From Plumapathes pennacea (taxonomy: Eukaryota; Cnidaria; Anthozoa; Antipatharia; Myriopathidae), in NCBI GenBank assembly GCA_964036295.1, contig OZ038473.1:6913501-6977500 (forward strand): 64,000 nt of DNA. Direction: 5' to 3'. Shown piece after piece: positions 1,563 to 64,000 of the stretch. How positions within the stretch are numbered: the first letter of the stretch is position 1; each line of letters starts with the position of its first letter. Under the pieces are notes generated by a model. The model saw only the letters and a list, made by a program, of their open reading frames with translations. It ran no database searches and was not told where the DNA came from. Made by a program: the position numbers and the translations under genes.

Positions 1563-2670
1563 TCAAGAATTAGAGGTGTTTTGTGGCAAGATAAAAACCT
1601 GTGCTTGGCCAATGTTACAAGAATTGAAAATCCCGTTCAGGGAGCCATTTGTCGCCAACGCAGCCACCGATCTTGACGAGCTGGAAGACAAGGTTGCGCT
1701 TTGGCTCGGAGCTTGACCACCTTGCTCGAGAGCACGTGAAATAATTTCTGAGCAATTCTTCAGCTGAGTTTTGGAGGGCCGTCTGTTATAGCTCGCCAAA
1801 CTTTGCTCATTAGCATGGCCAGAGATGCTCCTGATGTGGCGGTCTGGAACGCTTGCATCTGACCATAGGGTAATGGCTGTTGCACGAACAGAATGATTCG
1901 TGTAGACTTTGGACAAACCAGCTCCCAAGGAGATTTCTTTCATAATCGTCGACAGACGATTAACCCCCAGAGGCTTGTTTTGGAACGAAACAGCATCCGA
2001 CCATTCGAACTTGGTTTTCGGTTTTTGGAAGAATGCTTCCTGTGCGGGGTTCAGTTTAGACAGGTACATTTTCAAGCAAGAAAATGCATCGCCTTCCCTT
2101 CCAGTGCTGTACAGACGGGTCTGCCTTTCGTCGCTGGGCCGGTCATTAAATCCTCCCTGGTGATTTTTTGTTAGTTCCTTGTGTGTCATGGTTGCATAAT
2201 CAGTCCCGTCTGCGTCCTTCTTAAACTGAAAGCTGGAACTGCGAAGTGAACGCTGTCCTTCGCAACCTCGGCGACACCAGTGCAGAGTGACAGTGAACCA
2301 AACCTTCTGAAGGAGTCCGTCGGGCGTACTGTGATCCATGAAGGGGCTGTCCTTCAGCTTCAGTAGGTCTTCAGACTTGATTACTGGCTTGTGTTTTATG
2401 TTTTCCTCCCCGCTCTGCGTATGGATTTTAACTTTGACTCCAACATTTTGTTGCTTCGGCTAAAAGCCGGATTCTTCGTCAGTTTCAAAGATCGCCCACT
2501 GGCATTGAAGTGGCGCTCTACCGAGTTTCTGAAACCCAGGAGCGAGGATCGGCTGTATTCCTCGCCTGATTTGGTTCTCGCTTCTGCATAGAGCCTCCGA
2601 AGATTTTCGTCCAGCTCAGCGACCGTCATGTTGAAAAGGGTTTTCTTGATGCCCCTCTCGCTACACCAAT
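1563..2670 (-). pseudogene. Crypton-type tyrosine recombinase (KIAA1958-like), frameshifted
   Basis: Crypton elements move with a tyrosine recombinase; animal proteins such as KIAA1958 and ZMYM family members carry domesticated copies. From 2670 down to 2396 the frame reads the N-terminal core-binding part (ELDENLRRLYAEARTKSGEE, then SSLLGFRNSVERHF). A one-base shift near 2391 moves the frame, and from about 2390 to 1563 the catalytic domain follows. Its catalytic set looks complete: Arg in CRRGCEGQR, His and Arg in NHSVRAT, His in SISGH, and the nucleophile Tyr in SLASYNR. An acceptor-like tttttacag precedes TDWCSERG at 2671, so an upstream exon or element part is missing. Low-complexity Ser/Ala follows the Tyr before the stop at 1563. 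The frameshift makes it a pseudogene unless it is a sequencing error. Confidence 0.85.
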
Positions 2671-2809
2671 CTGTAAAAACGAGGTACGTACAAACTTTTA
2701 GTTCGTGTTTATGTTCAGGTAATAGGTCAATAATGTAAAAACACCAGGAAAAATAAACTGATATTTACCTTATATATATGATATATACCCTATATCAATC
2801 AAATTTCCG

Positions 2810-3110
2810 CGGTGAACTTAGGAACGCAAGCAAAAATCATCCCTAAAATCCAGTTTATCGGTTCCGTAACATGTTCCACAGAGCCAAACGGTGTTAAGTT
2901 TGGATGGGATGCAGTTATCTTTCACACACAAGTAACAAGCAATTCAACAGCCCACATCTCAAGTTGTTCGCAAAGTCAATTACGTCGTCGCATGTCATGT
3001 GACAATGTGAACCCCAATCACCGTGTGCTGATTTTCGACCCACAAAAATAAAACGGAAAAAGAATTTGCAATTTTAAGCTCGCCGCAGCCACGAGCAAAT
3101 AGGAGTCCAC
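2810..3110 (+). repeat. Repeat family R, partial copy
   Basis: It shares aatccagtttatcggttcc, ccaatcaccgtgtgctgatt and taagctcgccgcag with copies at 10470-10850, 11780-12235, 12600-12880, 30930-31320 and 57850-58340. Confidence 0.75.
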
Positions 3111-3879
3111 ACCACGGCAAACCAGTGGAAAACTGTTAATTAGAACGAGTTCAATGTGAAAATAACAAATAAATCACTTTCACAGTCATGCGCAGTTTGT
3201 GAAGTGCAGATGTTCTGGCGGGCCAGCTGACGATAAAACTTGGCTGGCAGAGTGGATAACTAATTCTTCAGTGATTATGTATAAACAAAGACCAAGCTTT
3301 ACAGATACACTTAGTTGACAGACACTTGCTTATGTGGTCAGAAAAAGTACTATTTGCTACTGCGCATGACCGTGAAAGTGCCTTATTCCATTCTAATCCA
3401 AAAAGGTTAGCAAAGAGTTATGGGCCTTTTATTTCTGATTGTATTGTTTGGCCGCTGATTGACTGAAGAAAACATCCGATTAGACAGCACCTGGGCTCCT
3501 ACTTGATAAACAAGTGAGAACAACTAAATAACAAATGTTACTTTATTGGTCAAAATAAATAACGTAATATAATATACAATCGTACTGGCCATTAATACTG
3601 TATTAAAATAAAGCTGTGTGCACGTGTTGCAAAAGCGCTTGTATTATTCGTCATTCGGGTTCATCTTCACGTTATCCTTGTCGATATTCTGGAGTTTCTC
3701 CATTACAAACCCCAAACTTTCAATTCGAGGCTACTATCGAAGTCTCATCTCATTTGAGTCCGAATTGAGTCAATACCGTGGAATGATTTGCATTCATTAA
3801 TTGCAATTTATTTTGTTTGGAATTACTCATAAACACTAAACTGCCGTCCTCAAATAAGTATACCAAATAATGCCCTGTT

Positions 3880-5069: not shown

Positions 5070-6450
5070 GAAAAATAGGCACCTGAGAGGTGCATGTGTC
5101 TACTGCATTTCATCTTTTATTTTTTACATGACTCATGGCATTTGCCACAGGTACTGAATGAAACAGCTCCCACACCTCGCATACACCACAAGATGATTTG
5201 TGACCTATTCCAGTTAGCTCGAATTAGCTGGCCTGCTGCCAAAATGTCGCATCGCATCTGTGTTTACGCTGAACTGTTCTATAAAAAAAAACATTTTTTT
5301 TCTGGGGAAACTGAGAAAATTTAAGCACAGGAAAAACGCACACACTTATAAATGCAGGAACAGAGGGAAGGATACCCAGACAGATCAAAATTCGGATCAG
5401 CATCAAGAAGCACTTGGGTTACCTCGGCTCTGGGAGTGTCTCGAGGCGAAGGAATATAGGATCCCGGAGATGAAGGTGCTTCAGGGGCAGTAACCACTGC
5501 TAGGAAATATGACTATTCAGTTGCCATTGACAGTTTCTGTAAACATTTCACCCCATAGCCGTCACGGCCAAATCCTATATTTATTAAATACTTATAATAA
5601 TAATCAAATGGAAGATTCATAGGTGCTTCATATTTTACTGTCTCTGCCGACTGAAACATTGACACAAAATAATAACTGGTCGAGTTACGTACTGTTGCAA
5701 TGTGTTGTCACATTTTACACAGTTCATCAGGAAAATCGGGCGATGCATAGTCCTGGCCAGAAGCTTCTATTCAAGTGTTTTCAGCATACATATTTTCAAA
5801 AACTGTGATTCGAGACCATATTTGAAATAGGTCTAAAAGTGCACATGCCAGGGGTCAATAGCAAGGAGACAGGGTGATATTGCTCACCACAGGAATCACA
5901 ACCATGCACTCAATCATGCGTAACATGCATATTTAATTCTGCTGAACAGAGTGAGTCAGAATAATATTGCTCTGCAAACTCAAAGCGGCTGAAATTCCTC
6001 CCAAATCAAAGCAAATTTGGCATGTATTCTACATTGCACAAAACCTTGCCTGTTTTACCCTCCCAAGCGCTAAAATCCATTTTGAGCAGCATATCTTGTT
6101 TCCGAGCGGTATTCATATTCATTAACCGGTGTACCAGTAAATGTGTTCCCCACGGCTGTTTCAAACTGCCAAATGTCACCATTCGGTTCCAGTCCACCAA
6201 AATGTGCTAACTACTCGGTCAGTCAGCCTCGTGCTGGTGTGACGCAGCGTGAGGTCACACACGGCGTTGAGACGTAAACAGATGAATTGTTCTCTCTTGC
6301 GCTTACTTCGGTCGATCGAGATGAGCCGCAGTGATTTTATCCGAGGGAATGTCAAGATTATTGTACAAGTAGTACCTAGTGTGTTTGCCGTTTTGGCAAA
6401 CTTTTGTTCGGTGCTCAATTTCAAGCTTGGTTTTTGACTTCGAAAACAAG
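5070..6450. other. Upstream region of the 83-residue gene, nothing assigned
   Basis: Short frames only. Minus-strand frames of 64 and 103 codons at 6006-6487 have no family I recognise and end without splice sites. Confidence 0.45.
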
Positions 6451-6456
6451 ACAGAA

Positions 6457-7088
6457 ATGGCAGTTTGCTTGGGAGAGAAGTCAGCAATCGACAGTGGAAA
6501 GCAAAGGTAAGAGTGAAGCTCTGTACTTACTTAATCATTTCTTTTAGATTTAGTTAGCTAACTATTTTTTTAGCGTGTATTTGGGCGATCGAGGGAAGGC
6601 ACCGTGTGTTGATTTCAGTTCGAATGTTCGCCGTTTTGGTGTTTTCCCGCCTTCTCATTTGTAGCGGCCGCGCACAGACTCCCGCTTTTTTCAGGCTTCG
6701 GTCGATCATGGAGGCTCCATGAAGGTAGATATAAAGATTGACACGTTTCAGCAATTTATCTCACTTCTATTTCCTTTGGCGTATTTCATATGTGTCTTTG
6801 AAATGCAGAGTGTACAAATGGCCGGCGCCGCCGAAGAAGAGAAAAAGAGTTGTCCCCCGTGGCGTCCAGTTCGTGGACGTTGAAATGTAAGAAGTGGTGT
6901 TTTGATTTGCCTAAAATTTATTGACCATAAATTACCGATGTTCGTTTGGAATTTGTATATGTAGTACACCCAAGGAAGCCCAAAAACAGGAGAAAGAGAA
7001 GAAGAGGAGAGAAATGCTAGTGAAGATGCTCGAGGAGCAGAAGGCAAAAAGCGAGAAAAAGAAGAAGAAAAGAAAAAATCCTTTTTAA
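6457..7088 (+). CDS. Small three-exon gene, 83-residue lysine-rich protein, function unknown
   Basis: Three exons join perfectly: 6457-6506, 6809-6886 and 6965-7088. Total length is 252 bases including the stop, with phases 2 and 2. Donors are gtaaga and gtaaga; acceptors are tgcag and tgtag. The protein begins MAVCLGEKSAIDSGKQRVYK, has a basic stretch APPKKRKRVVPRG around residues 23-35 that looks like a nuclear localisation signal, a charged coiled-coil-like segment (QKQEKEKKRREMLVKMLEEQ), and a very basic tail ending KKKKKRKNPF. I do not recognise the family; a nuclear or nucleolar role is inference from composition only. AATAAA lies at 7176-7181, so the transcript should end near 7195-7200, touching the stop codon of the convergent RAG1-like gene. 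Confidence 0.82.
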
Positions 7089-7175
7089 GTTTGGGAAGAC
7101 GTGTGGTACACGTTAAGTTATTTTTGTGAGCATTTACGGCGTGGAAATTCAAGGAAAATGCTGTGCAACTTGTGA

Positions 7176-7181
7176 AATAAA
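7176..7181 (+). terminator. Poly(A) signal of the 83-residue gene
   Basis: A canonical AATAAA lies 88 bases after the stop codon, followed by a T-rich and GT-rich stretch. Cleavage would fall close to 7197, where the opposite-strand gene has its stop codon. Confidence 0.7.
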
Positions 7182-7196
7182 TTGTTGTTGATTTCC

Positions 7197-7805
7197 TTAA
7201 TTGGGGCATGTCTCCTGGCCAGTTCTGAAGTATTCTTGGATGCAGACAAAACAGAAGAAGTGCTGGCAGGGTCCTTGAATGGGCTGTTGTAATATATCCT
7301 TGCAGATGGGGCAGATTAACTCGAGGCTGGGGTCTATGAAGCGGTCGAAGGGTGGCATATCTTCTATAAGTTTGGGTGGCACAATGTCGCTGTTCATACA
7401 ACTAGTGCTTGTTGGAGTTGCTTCATGTGCACACAGTTTCTTGGGTGGTCTACCCCTCCCCATAGTGGCTTTCCTCTTTTTGCCACCTTTTTGCTTGGCA
7501 AGGAAGAAATTACAAACACGACAAGGCGATGCATGCTCTTCCCACGGTACAACTTTTGTGGAGCAGTGATAATGGTGGTTCGCAATAGCTTTCCCACACT
7601 TAACGTAGCAGTTGTTGCACAGCTTCCGGGGGTGAATGTTTTCTTGGTCTTTTTGAATGTCTATATTGAAACCAGAAAGAAGCATACCAGACACCTTTGT
7701 AGCAGAGACATTGCAGGCCACCCTATCTTTATTCACGAAGGTTGTACAGACTCGGCAGCATCTCTCGAGCTGACTCAAATGAAATTGTTCCGATGCGCGC
7801 TCCAT
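7197..7805 (-). CDS. RAG1 N-terminal-region-like zinc protein with a truncated RING finger
   Basis: The 202-residue protein starts at the ATG at 7805, directly after a splice acceptor CAG; the codons before it are intronic. Residues 16-98 carry a zinc-binding pattern like the RAG1 N-terminal region: CRVC near 17-20, FNIDIQKD and IHP (46-59), CNNC (63-66), W88, H91 and CRVC (95-98), followed by a basic KGGKKRK. Residues 116-123 (RGRPPKK) resemble an AT-hook. Residues 165-202 are a C3HC4 RING finger (C165, C168, C180, H182, C185, C188, C200), but a TAA follows CPN, so the eighth ligand expected at position 203 is missing. There is no RAG1 core (DDE) domain here. A domesticated N-terminal-only RAG1-like gene or a decayed transposon fragment both fit. 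No GT that would allow alternative splicing around the stop was seen. Confidence 0.8.
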   Translation of the reverse strand: MERASEQFHLSQLERCCRVCTTFVNKDRVACNVSATKVSGMLLSGFNIDIQKDQENIHPRKLCNNCYVKCGKAIANHHYHCSTKVVPWEEHASPCRVCNFFLAKQKGGKKRKATMGRGRPPKKLCAHEATPTSTSCMNSDIVPPKLIEDMPPFDRFIDPSLELICPICKDILQQPIQGPCQHFFCFVCIQEYFRTGQETCPN

Positions 7806-7927
7806 CTGATTCAATTAAAACAATGAATCAGCAAAAAGTACCTTTTAAGCAATTAAAAAAATAGTTAGCACCCAAATCGTTTAAAAGTCATCATGAGCAG
7901 ATGTTATAGTTTTCCAGAAGTACTTAC

Positions 7928-7975
7928 ATTTTTCACTTCATTGCTTCGTCACAGCTCCAACTGCCGGTGAAAGTC
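7928..7975 (-). other. Probable non-coding first exon of the RAG1-like gene (5' limit unknown)
   Basis: A strong minus-strand donor (gtaagt at 7922-7927) lies 121 bases upstream of the acceptor that precedes the ATG of the RAG1-like gene. The sequence before it has a short ATG-AAG-stop frame, so it would be untranslated. The outer limit is a guess. Confidence 0.45.
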
Positions 7976-8882
7976 GACCAAATCGTGGACGAGTGTGATG
8001 TTCCCGCAACAGTTACGGGTCTTTATTCTTCAACTTACGGATTCTCCGTGGGAGAAATCTTAATATTCCTTGAAGTTTTTCAGTCGGACCCCTGTCCTTC
8101 TCAAAAATGCGCTTTGCTCGTCTCGAAGTATTACAATTTTAAATTGCCCGCTTTGTTTTTATCTTACGTAATTTTCATATCAGCCGCCATTTTCGTTGGT
8201 ACGGGACCGCTTTCTCATAGCAACACTTTTTGGCCGCGCGTGTGCCTGAAACCGAATGGCGCGATTGAAACAGCCGTGTCCCCCCTAAAAGTGTTCTCCC
8301 CGGAACACATTTCCTAGTAAATATGTTTCCTAGGATATGTGTTTCACCTATCGGAAATATGTTCCCCCCAAGTTAACATTAGCTGTATACGATAACAATT
8401 GTCTGCGCAACTGCAACAGGGATTCGGGCAGAGTCAAACTTATTGCGTTTTGCGTTTTCAACTCTGGTCTACACGAAAACGAAAGAATTCGGTGATAAAA
8501 ATACATCGATTCGAAAACACAGCCAAAAGTGGATCGTTTTCAAAACGGCTCGGTTTCTCTTTCCGTGTAAACGCATCGGTATAAACCGTGCCTCAACAAA
8601 GAACGATAACAGATAAAAACATTAAGCAAAGCAAGAATTCAACATTAGGCATGCAAATTAACAATGTGGACTAAATGCCCGCTGAAAAAGCCCGCCGTGT
8701 CGTGAATAAAATCGTTTCTTTTGTGTTGTGAGGTAATGACGTGAATGATTGACACATTGTTATTATGTTTACTCCACCCATAAAGTGACAAAATGCATTG
8801 ACCAATAATTGTAAGACTGGAATAAAAAACCTCCCAGGGTTTCTGTAGAGTGAAGAGGAGTAAACTGCGAGGAGAAGCAAAG

Positions 8883-9032
8883 ATGGATTCAAAGGAGTAT
8901 AGTGTTATCTATAATTATGTTGCAAGAGGAGAGTATCCAGATAGGTTCTCTAAAGAAGAAAAGAGATCTCTGAGAGTGAAGGTCGACGCGAGAGGAACGC
9001 GGAAACGGACTATTGAAAGATATAAACTTTGA
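8883..9032 (+). pseudogene. N-terminal fragment of a Ginger/KRBA2-type integrase ORF
   Basis: The 49-residue frame MDSKEYSVIYNYVARGEYPD and onward (RFSKEEKRSLRVKVD) matches the start of cnidarian integrase proteins of the GIN/KRBA2 type as I recall them. It is cut short at ERYKL and followed, 135 bases on, by a PHD-finger remnant, so the integrase core seems to have been deleted. The family call is from memory; confidence is moderate. Confidence 0.55.
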
Positions 9033-9157
9033 TCAAGTGAAGATGAGGGTGCACCTACTTGAGTGCCTAGAGAACGAAGCAATCACGGCCTTTCCCCATT
9101 CACATAAAGCACCGAAACAGCAACAAAGAAGTCACAAACTGCAGGTGATTCAAACCT

Positions 9158-9322
9158 TTTTTTACCTGCCATCTACCCGAGGCGTATGATGACATGATCA
9201 GATGTGATTTGTGCGACAAGTGGTATCACGCTAAATGCGTGAAATTATCTTCAATTCCCGCCGATAATGAAGAATGGCTCTGCCGATCATGCCTGCCACC
9301 TAAGAAAGTTAGCCAGAGATAA
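9158..9322 (+). pseudogene. PHD-finger fragment of the same element
   Basis: The frame contains MIRCDLCDKWYHAKCVKL and EEWLCRSC, the core of a C4HC3 PHD finger, ending in a stop at 9320-9322. Only one Cys of the first C-x-C pair remains (TCHLPEAYDD), so the finger is probably broken. PHD fingers are found at the C-terminus of some Ginger-type integrases, which fits the fragment at 8883. Confidence 0.7.
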
Positions 9323-10046
9323 ACAGTTGATAACCCGTAGACTGTACATAAACATTTGTTTCAAGCCTGGGAGCTTTTAGCCCCGAGTACATGCGCCGAC
9401 GCCGAGACTCATGCAAACACAACTGACTAAACATCATGTTACAGTTTAATGGAATACTAGACTTCCACTAGTGTGCGTAAATCGGTGGAGCAATTTATTT
9501 GGTATCTATACAAACATGCGTCTTGAGCAGATAAGCCCACAATACAAAAGAAGCAGTGTCACAATTGATCGAGAATTGTCGTAATTTTGGACGTCAGTAT
9601 ACCTGACAAGGGCAGGGCACAATTATGCCTTCGGCATGGTCAACGTTTACTGGGGGGAACACATATCCTAGGAAATGTGTTCCGGGGGGAACACATTTCC
9701 TGTCACACCTTATTAGACGACCAATACAACATGTGTTTTCAAGAGTAGCATTTATTTTTAACTCGCACGAACAAATGCAAACGCCACCCTTCGAGGTTCA
9801 TAGACTGGTTTCACCATTTACAGTCTCAGTCAAACCAATGAAATAAATAAACATTGACTGGGTGACTGAATACATACTAGCATGTGTTGTTTTCTTGCAG
9901 AGTTCCGTCAGGGAAAATCGAGCGAAGTTTTGACGAACTCACTTTAACCCTTCAAGAGCAACTTGGTACTTATCCTGGCAACTTTGAAGGCATCGTAAAC
10001 AAATGCTCACTGAAGTAAACGACCAAATGGCCAATGGGTCTTTCAC

Positions 10047-44100: not shown

Positions 44101-47100
44101 ATTGTGATTTTGGTGCCCACGCGAATTTGCGTCTGAAAACTCTATGGAGCCACCTTAAGAGGCTTAAGAAAATTGTCGTTATCTTAAGTTAGAACTATAT
44201 ATTCTTTGGAATACATTCGCTAAAATACGCTGCTGCCAAAGCATGGAACAACGTAACGGACAAAACTAGGGATGCCACATTCCTTCAAGTTTTAAGAACT
44301 TATGCTCTTAAATAATTTAGGATTTTACATTCTGAAGTAGTTTTTTTTTACTACATATTTCAATCTTTTAAAGAAAGTGTCCCGATCCTGCGCATGTGCG
44401 AATTTAAAGTTTCAGAAACAATCGTTTATACAAATCTGAGTCACGGAAATTAACGATCAAATTTCTCAACCAATGAAAAAGCGACGAAGGTTACAATCTG
44501 CACGTAATTTGCATACGTCGTACATATTTGATTTTTACTGAGAGATCTTTTTTTTTTTTGCCAGGAGGGAGGCAGCGTGGCCGAGTGGTTAGGGCGCCGG
44601 ACTTGAAATCCGGAGGTCCCAGGTTCAAGTCCCGCTCTGAGCACTAACTGAATTTGTAACACGGTAGCCCTGCGTTCAAATCCTCGGCCTCGACCAGTTG
44701 GGATTTTTAACAGATTTACGTTGAGTTTAAAACACGGCCCCACCAGCTCTGCTGAATTACTTACCGTGTATAAATAAAGACACTTTACTTTACTTTATTT
44801 TACTTTACTCATAAACGGTAACAGATCAGTACAAAAATCTAAAAAACGATTACCAACAAGAATGCTTCTCAAACTTATTTTGTTGGCACTACTTCTGCGA
44901 CAGCAGGTAGACAGAAATCTGACAAACAAAGAGGTTTCGGCACAATGCCGAATGGAGATCAAAATTCTGTTGGATAAATCAGTCACAGGACCATCTTCGT
45001 TTATAATTTCCTATATATTTTGTATTTCCTTGCACAAAGAAACCGCTCGAATTCCATGATGTTGGTTCCAGAGCAGCATTAGATCAGTCTTGGTCTGTGA
45101 ACTTCGAACGGTCTTTTGGAAAATAGCAGCCTCCCAATCGCCAAACTTTTTTGTCCGATACACTTGACCACAACTAAATTATTCGAATTGGATAAGCAAA
45201 ATAAAAACTAGGCAAATATGCCAAAGATTCTACCGGATTCACTACGTCTGACTCAACTTTGATTTCTGTTACACCCTGAAAAATAAATTAAAGGAGCGCA
45301 CGCAAAGGATCGGGACGCTGTTCCTTTCAGATTTTTTTTCTTTAATCTTTTAGTCACTTAAAGGCGGGGACGCACTATAAAAGGCCTACACAGAGATCTT
45401 GCTAAGGAATATTTTGATAAGGTTTCGATTACACAAAATGGTTCCGCTTATGAAACAATGCTGTGCACAATTTCCGACCAAGAACATACGACATTGATCA
45501 GAAATCAAATCTAGTCGACCTCCTCGCCAATTTATTTGTTCGGCTGAGCCCGAATTAAATCAATATTAGACTGACTGAACCGTGAAATGATTTGCACTTT
45601 GTAACTGCGATATATTTTGTTCGGAATTACTCAAAGACAACAAATATTGCTGCCCTCAAGAGAGTATACCAAGAAAAATTGTGCCCTTCGGTCGGTCGAA
45701 AACCAAGGCGACCCGAGAGAATGGCGCGCGATTCGAAAGTAGGCCGCCCACGCTGAATCTGTTGTTCTGCCTATTGCTAACGAACACAACATGAAAACGC
45801 ACAATTCGCGACTTTTAAACGTAAATCTTGCTGTGTAAAACCGTTTACTTAGCTGAAGTTCAGTTCATATGGCGAGAAAAACAAGATGTTTCCATTTTGC
45901 TTTCTTCATTACACCATTTTGTATTTAATTTGAAAATTTTTATACCCTTTTATAGCGCGCCCCCGCGTTTAAGGTGGCTCCATAAGGTTTTGCGAATGCG
46001 CTATTGTGGAACATTTCGGAAATATATTCGTCAAGTCCTTATTTTGCAGTTAATGGCGCAACACACACGTAAATTATCAAGTTTCTCTCTGATTTTTTTC
46101 TCAGGTTTCTTTCGGTGAATATTTCTTAAACTTTCCGGGAAAACGAAGACTATGTCCGGTCTTGTCATATTTGACTTTAATGGAAATTTATGGAGCAGAT
46201 ATTTTATATTCGCAGAAAACTTAAATTGCCAATTAGTTCGGAATCCGCTCCTTTAACCCCCCCCCCCCCCCCCTTCTTTTCACAGCTATAATTACTTTAT
46301 ATAAATTCCAAATATACTGAAAGTTTCAGGAAATTTCACCGAAGAGAACTCCATAAAATAGAGCAGAAAATGGGGTAGAAGACCCTTAATTCAAGGAAGT
46401 ATTGTTCCATAGAAACCAAATTAGAGTGACAAAATTAAGACCTATACGCAACAGACCTTTTGAAATATCCACGCTGTGAATTTGATCAACAAAGAATATA
46501 ATAAAGAAATGAAAATATGACAGTTTTAGTGTCATAAACTAGTTCTAAACACGTTCAGCGAAAACCCCTATGGAGCCACCCTAATACTTTTATTAGTTTT
46601 CGGAGATACTAGTATGCTACTATAGAAATCCGAATGGAAATACAGATTGCATGTAAGTTTGTAAGTATGCGTCCTTCCTTCCCAAAACGTTGACAATAAC
46701 GCCTCACACATCGACAATGCATATCTCTCACTACATTTACAATCACCATACACTACTTCACACTCTATCCTTCCGCTTGGGAAACTATTTATCATCTCTT
46801 TCATCTCTTCGATCCACTCATCCGAAGATTACACACCAATGTTTCCAAATTTGCCGGGGTCCAGGTAGTAATTAAATTATTGATGCTACAGATGCTACCT
46901 ATACTTTTGAAACAACACGAGCCTGAATCATTATGCTTGATGACATTACATTAATAACACAGTCAACTTACGCAAATTAGGACGCACCACAGGTTCTTCA
47001 TTCATGCTTGAAACAAGTTTCTGTCAGAAGAAATCATTTCTCAAAATCATTAATAATTCATGGCATTATTAGCCAACCAGCGGATCATATTTGGTCAGAT

Positions 47101-63135: not shown

Positions 63136-64000
63136 TATTTTTTTTCCGTTCTCTTTTCTTTTTTAAGAATTGAAAGCAAGAAAGACCGTTTGATTTATTC
63201 TCCATGTGATTTGCACGTGTGCTGTAATTGATGTGCGTGAGCAAAATCAGACTGGTTGTCAAAGTGAAGTTGTCAATGACTTTTATTGAACTTGGTGGCT
63301 CCTAAAGGAGCCGTTGTTTTCAAGGCGAATCTCACTCAAAGAAGATGAAAATTGAAAATTACTCGTTCAAGCTCGTGACTGACTGGACGCGTGTATGTAT
63401 GGACATGAGCCAAAAATTTACTCGTATTTATACATACACAATAAACTTGGCAGATCGAAATGCACTAACTTTTATTGGTCTAAAGAATCTTGTTTGTTCT
63501 ATTCATGGATAAAAATACACCGAAATACACCAGCATTTAGAAAAGCTTTTAAAAGGATTCATTGTTTACGCGATTTGATACCTCAACACGTCAACACCTG
63601 AACGCCCCCTTTGGCTCATTAGTCCTAAACATCTATTGAAACAGATTATTTGTGCTTGTGCTTCTTTGTGCTAATGTTTCTAGTTGAATCTCTTTCAAGA
63701 TTTAATAAATTCTAGTGTTTGCAAATACCAGTACCACTACATGTTGCAAAATCATGTGACATGCCCACTGAGAACACATAAACACTGAATATTGGTGTCA
63801 AATGAAGAAGCAGCCTACAGTTGCTGAATGTACCGGTCGGTAACTCTGCAAAGTCCAGGCTAGATAAGTAACCATGCACAACACCTTTATGATTAATTAT
63901 GCATTGCCCTAAATGTTCTGATACATGTAGTGATGGCAACAATGCCTCACAAATTACTGCCAAGGCCCATGAATTATCTCAATCTCTTCCAAGGTTAAGT

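Follow-up and report, generated by a model that had tools for sequence, protein, structure and literature searches.

A truncated RAG1-like frame in Plumapathes pennacea, read as part of an internally deleted Chapaev-type transposon

Chapaev transposons and other elements with RAG1-like sequence

As far as the available parts of the relevant papers describe them, Chapaev DNA transposons are recognised by a target site duplication (TSD) of generally 3 to 4 bp and by CAC/GTG termini (PMC4079192), and DUF1280 has been assigned to their transposases, which are placed in the same clade as RAG1 (PMC3985635). In two Chapaev subgroups a Chapa domain is followed by a RING finger (Kapitonov and Koonin, 2015, PMC4411706). 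A TSD of 5 bp is given for Transib and RAG1/2 in the literature available to us. Sequence related to the N-terminal part of RAG1 is also described for the RAGL/ProtoRAG elements (PMC7204232) and for N-RAG-TP of Aplysia (PMC8355894).

The locus presented here lies in a stretch of 64 kb (C12:6913501-6977500, hereafter the window) of the Plumapathes pennacea genome, which was searched as 290 Mb in 24 contigs. Judged from its sequence and that of its relatives, it is very probably a non-autonomous, internally deleted DNA transposon of Chapaev type, of the kind with a RAG1-like zinc-finger region and a RING finger at the start of the transposase. The ends of the element, the deletion junction inside it and the published Chapaev elements with RAG1-like zinc fingers and a RING lead to this reading and away from a domesticated RAG1 N-terminus.

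The truncated frame and its fuller relatives

The frame is read on the minus strand from an ATG at 7805 to a TAA at 7199-7197 and encodes 202 aa (the list of open reading frames gives 205 aa, counted from an upstream TTG); in translation, the plus strand of 7197-7805 is not open. A preliminary description of this DNA had proposed a RAG1 N-terminal-like protein with an AT-hook-like motif and an incomplete RING, with no core nearby, and had called for profile searches, which returned significant matches to both parts. In Pfam scans RAG1_imp_bd, used here as a stand-in for the Chapa domain, matches the frame (E 2e-10), as do several RING models (E 5e-9 and weaker), and the best PDB match is RAG1 (E 1.3e-7, residues 44-204 of the 205-aa form). 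The NCBIfam search gave a sub-cut-off RING match only, and no relative was found in IMG/VR. The motif RGRPPKK is present, and the RING reads C-x2-C...C-x-H-x2-C-x2-C...C-P-N-stop, with seven of the eight ligands in place and only the last missing, the TAA coming straight after CPN as described. No GTRAG splice donor occurs inside the 202-aa frame. The claim about the core also held, since none of the family's catalytic exons was found within the 64 kb (tblastn, E 1e-3, exon pieces of the C1 copy as queries).

The closest relative, at C1:35315827-35316414, encodes a protein 97% identical to the window frame, and its frame of 279 aa stays open through a complete RING (CPMCKN). It belongs to a copy of 6,030 bp (C1, 35315363-35321392) with recognisable terminal inverted repeats (TIRs) at its ends, of which the left one has three mismatches by eye. 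The flanks of this copy are unmatched (TAGT and CCGC, no TSD), and together with the mutated left TIR this means that it is no clean parent of the window element. Its downstream exons include SEIWIKIGGDKGGGSFK... and HILEDHMVNWMKTWKVGFGLMGEQGAESIH..., the first of which matches DUF1280 in Pfam (E 2e-12), as do all six rows for this exon, C1 included (best 2.4e-15). No significant Pfam match was obtained for the second, the exon with the GEQGAESIH motif, and seven pieces of the C1 copy gave no kelch match in Pfam. The profiles of the catalytic exons, A1 and A2, did not match RAG1 in PDB, and the RAG1 catalytic core PF12940 had no match in the genome, where the control was likewise empty. The link between the catalytic exons and the RAG1 core is taken from the papers (PMC3985635, PMC4079192, PMC4411706) and not from the sequence studied here.

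DUF1280 is found in the relatives only and not in the window copy, while the order Chapa then RING, with RAG1_imp_bd as stand-in, is present in both the window and the C1 frames. A diverged sister protein at C1:31.7 Mb matches RING models and not RAG1_imp_bd. The resemblance to RAG1 is real and has already been published for Chapaev, and the 202-aa frame is no gene of its own: it forms the first (5') exon of the transposase of a Chapaev-type element bounded by TIRs and a TSD. A separate capture of two host genes was considered and rejected, both halves being found in one C1 stretch with recognisable TIRs. A literature search of partial coverage, by titles and the opening lines of abstracts, found no description of this particular Chapaev family.

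The window frame has 39 matches in the genome, 15 of them to the RING end only; the other 24 rows correspond to 18 sites, the window included. In the stretches fetched around the 17 others, tblastn (E 1e-3) located one or both of two catalytic exons downstream at 10 sites and neither at seven (C2:12.5, C11:7.8, C7:5.1, C11:10.3, C2:28.0, C1:20.1 and C9:8.1), so that core-less copies are common beside core-bearing ones.

Other subfamilies were also encountered. A second RING-Chapaev subfamily (L028, L030, L031, L033 and L034) consists of copies near-identical by eye, with an internal-deletion series of its own. Locus L038 (C1:20.06 Mb) carries at 2629-3297 a 223-aa frame with the RAG1-like N-terminal part of another subfamily and no RING or core within 10 kb, and in L039 (about 1738-3718) a RAG1-like/RING fragment of another subfamily is followed by frames that are Helitron-like by eye. 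Elsewhere in the window, a 258-aa frame at 1563-2339 on the minus strand (Phage_integrase 1.4e-6; DUF3504 1.4e-6, just under its cut-off) represents a mobile gene of the tyrosine-recombinase type. A tRNA match (Rfam RF00005, 35 bits) lies at 44571-44640 on the plus strand, and a histone 3' UTR stem-loop (Rfam RF00032) at 63274-63317 on the minus strand suggests a histone gene close to the window's end.

Element ends, deletion junction and selection

The element in the window has perfect TIRs of 14 bp and TSDs of 4 bp, its termini reading CACGGCTGTTTCAA...TTGAAACAGCCGTG with TCCC on either side (Table 1). An empty site exists on C11, where the surrounding repeat occurs without the element and 60 of 60 bases equal the window flanks rejoined with a single TCCC. 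A sister copy (C2:28037725-28039927) is flanked by AACG at both ends. A DNA search with window positions 5900-8500 gave at least 54 matches (40 of 281 candidates scored); among the matches listed, homology begins at 6151 at four other sites and stops at 8278 at three, and in the C1 copy, with its mutated left TIR, it begins at 6158.

Table 1. Features of the Chapaev-like element, in positions of the window
Feature	Positions	Strand	Evidence
Whole non-autonomous Chapaev-like element, probably internally deleted, 2,128 bp	6151..8278		TIRs, TSD, empty site, homologous copies
TSD TCCC, left	6147..6150		flanks and empty site
Left TIR, CACGGCTGTTTCAA	6151..6164	+	end comparison
Putative gene X, exon 1, donor CAAAG/GTAAGAG	6457..6506	+	GT-AG borders
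Putative gene X, exon 2	6809..6886	+	GT-AG borders
Putative gene X, exon 3, end KKKKKRKNPF-stop, convergent with transposase frame	6965..7088	+	GT-AG borders
Truncated transposase exon 1: RAG1-like zinc-finger (Chapa) region, AT-hook-like motif, RING without eighth ligand	7197..7805	-	Pfam, PDB, junction comparison
Deletion junction, one shared base at 7202	7198..7203		comparison with C1, C2:25.3, C2:28.0
Right TIR, CACGGCTGTTTCAA on minus strand	8265..8278	-	end comparison
TSD TCCC, right	8279..8282		flanks and empty site

The repeat that received the element occupies about 6126-6150 and 8279-9709 of the window. Its relative on C11 sits in another Chapaev copy (CCGG/TGTACC... and ...CACA/CCGG), so that the two kinds are inserted into one another, one way round here and the other way round on C11. 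An element of this sort, with TGT...ACA ends and a 4-bp TSD, is taken to resemble Ginger, and a 49-aa frame within it has no Pfam match.

Relative to the C1 copy, the window copy is missing about 4 kb. To the left of 7202 the window tracks the copies at C2:25.3 and C2:28.0 (...TAATT/CGATTTT) and to the right it tracks C1 (CACA/TGGGGCATG), with one base common to both sides. Since the homology switches at this point, the last sense codon AAT (Asn) and the stop TAA are, bar the shared base, not transposase-coding, and the missing eighth Cys is an accident of the breakpoint. C2:12.52 Mb has this junction too, beside a different flank (TTCTTA/CACGG); among the at least 54 matches listed, only these two copies cross it. 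The copy at C2:12.52 Mb has lost its right end, being further truncated than that in the window, and therefore offers no TSD pair for comparison. A second deletion endpoint, at window 7512, is common to C2:28.0 and C11:7.8, which indicates that the subfamily gave more than one deletion derivative.

The preliminary description had foreseen that related genomes might hold a longer intact frame and expose the stop as an error. A longer frame does exist, in the same genome, and it could mean that the gene is intact and the stop an artefact of assembly or sequencing; the identical junction at C2:12.52 Mb and the jump of homology to another part of the element leave such an error a vanishingly small chance. 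It had also offered a choice between a domesticated gene and a fresh truncation, of which the junction upholds the truncation, and the recurrence of that junction at another site, together with the TIR/TSD-bounded element, tells against the domestication.

A domesticated, N-terminal-only RAG1-like gene with a host function and no catalytic core would draw on the open frame and on the comparison between the window and C1, in which 148 codons hold five synonymous and four nonsynonymous changes (dN/dS 0.21, Fisher P 0.023). This ratio, which mixes both branches and includes the time before the deletion, reflects constraint on the whole family. The count stops at 148 codons because of a 24-base gap in the alignment, and the remainder is covered by a polarised count, for which C1, C2:12.5, C2:28.0 and C11:7.8 served wherever they cover the codon. 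On the window branch, three codons (21, 31 and 161) changed nonsynonymously and two (27 and 110) synonymously, and codons 99, 147, 152 and 175 are not polarisable; the changes at 21, 27 and 31 could predate the deletion, as the copy at C2:12.52 Mb, the only other one with this junction, does not reach these codons. With three nonsynonymous and two synonymous changes the branch does not depart from neutrality (P 0.28 for three or fewer nonsynonymous of five, on few changes). Considering also that TIRs and a TSD enclose the frame, that a paralogous empty site exists, that the frame's stop codon derives from non-coding sequence and that the copy with the same junction is truncated further, domestication is highly improbable.

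For the truncation, the most likely course of events, as read from the junction, is that end joining removed the middle of an element of C1 type, perhaps in abortive gap repair after excision, as the one-base overlap suggests. The short product, which kept both TIRs, would then have been moved in trans by the transposase of fuller copies, a step suggested by the recurrence of the junction at C2:12.52 Mb. Most likely the truncated frame itself does nothing and is a passenger between the element ends. The zinc-finger region is kept, as is the greater part of the RING, and this raises the idea that a truncated protein is produced which regulates full Chapaev copies in a trans-dominant manner, a case for which the KP repressors of the P element offer a comparison. 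The start codon and the zinc-finger region are intact and two different deletion derivatives both retain the 5' part of the transposase gene, but keeping both element ends already accounts for retention of the 5' exon and the other derivative, at C2:28.0, carries indels in the frame, which makes a regulator quite unlikely. An internal deletion that cut a known jumping gene at the RING makes the locus an ordinary one.

A possible convergent frame and comparison with known elements

The sole mildly unusual part of the locus is a possible frame on the plus strand, here called gene X, whose three exons with GT-AG borders join to a lysine-rich sequence of 83 aa. We know of no description of a Chapaev element with such a convergent frame. 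It matches neither Pfam models above cut-off nor kelch, and a search of the stretches fetched for other subfamilies, which may stop before the place of gene X, gave no match below E 0.1. The frame is damaged in the copies at C2:12.5, C2:28.0 and C2:25.3. Variable columns number 11 of 231 in its exons versus 55 of 694 in non-coding sequence, a lower share in the exons that does not reach significance (P 0.14; five copies, with gapped columns dropped and C7:4.0, which is without exons 2 and 3, left out). The C1, C2:28.0 and C11 copies hold an imperfect duplicate of the part with its last intron and exon, and the copy at C2:25.3 a partial one. Gene X may be a small accessory gene of the subfamily or a chance frame, and a second, convergent gene of this RING-bearing Chapaev subfamily, encoding an accessory transposition factor, is a tentative proposal with the balance against it.

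As far as the available parts of PMC4411706 allow a comparison, the locus shares with Chapaev elements carrying Chapa and RING the CAC...GTG TIRs, the 4-bp TSD and a RAG1-like zinc-finger region followed by a RING, as well as, in the fuller copies only, the DUF1280 catalytic exon. It differs from them in that about 4 kb, with the catalytic exons and the eighth RING ligand, are missing from the window copy, which also carries the possible convergent 83-aa frame. With RAGL/ProtoRAG, as described in the accessible portion of PMC7204232, it has in common the RAG1-like N-terminal zinc fingers, the RING of some members and a possible second gene placed tail-to-tail; in contrast, its TSD is of 4 and not 5 bp, its catalytic exon is DUF1280, and the second frame would give a short basic protein and matches no Pfam model above cut-off. 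N-RAG-TP of Aplysia, likened here by description from part of PMC8355894 and not by sequence, is also a mobile element with RAG1 N-terminal-like sequence, of which it is wholly made, whereas the core-less state of the present element is a secondary deletion, given the core-bearing copies in the same genome.

If the second gene were real, a transposon distantly related to the RAG1-RAG2 elements, and with a RAG1-like N-terminus, would parallel their tail-to-tail two-gene layout. The analysis removes a false lead: as the core-bearing copies in the same genome show, a RAG1 N-terminal frame without the core can be what a deletion has left of a Chapaev element. A family with both full and deleted copies provides material for the published idea that a zinc-finger and RING module was fused to a transposase before RAG.
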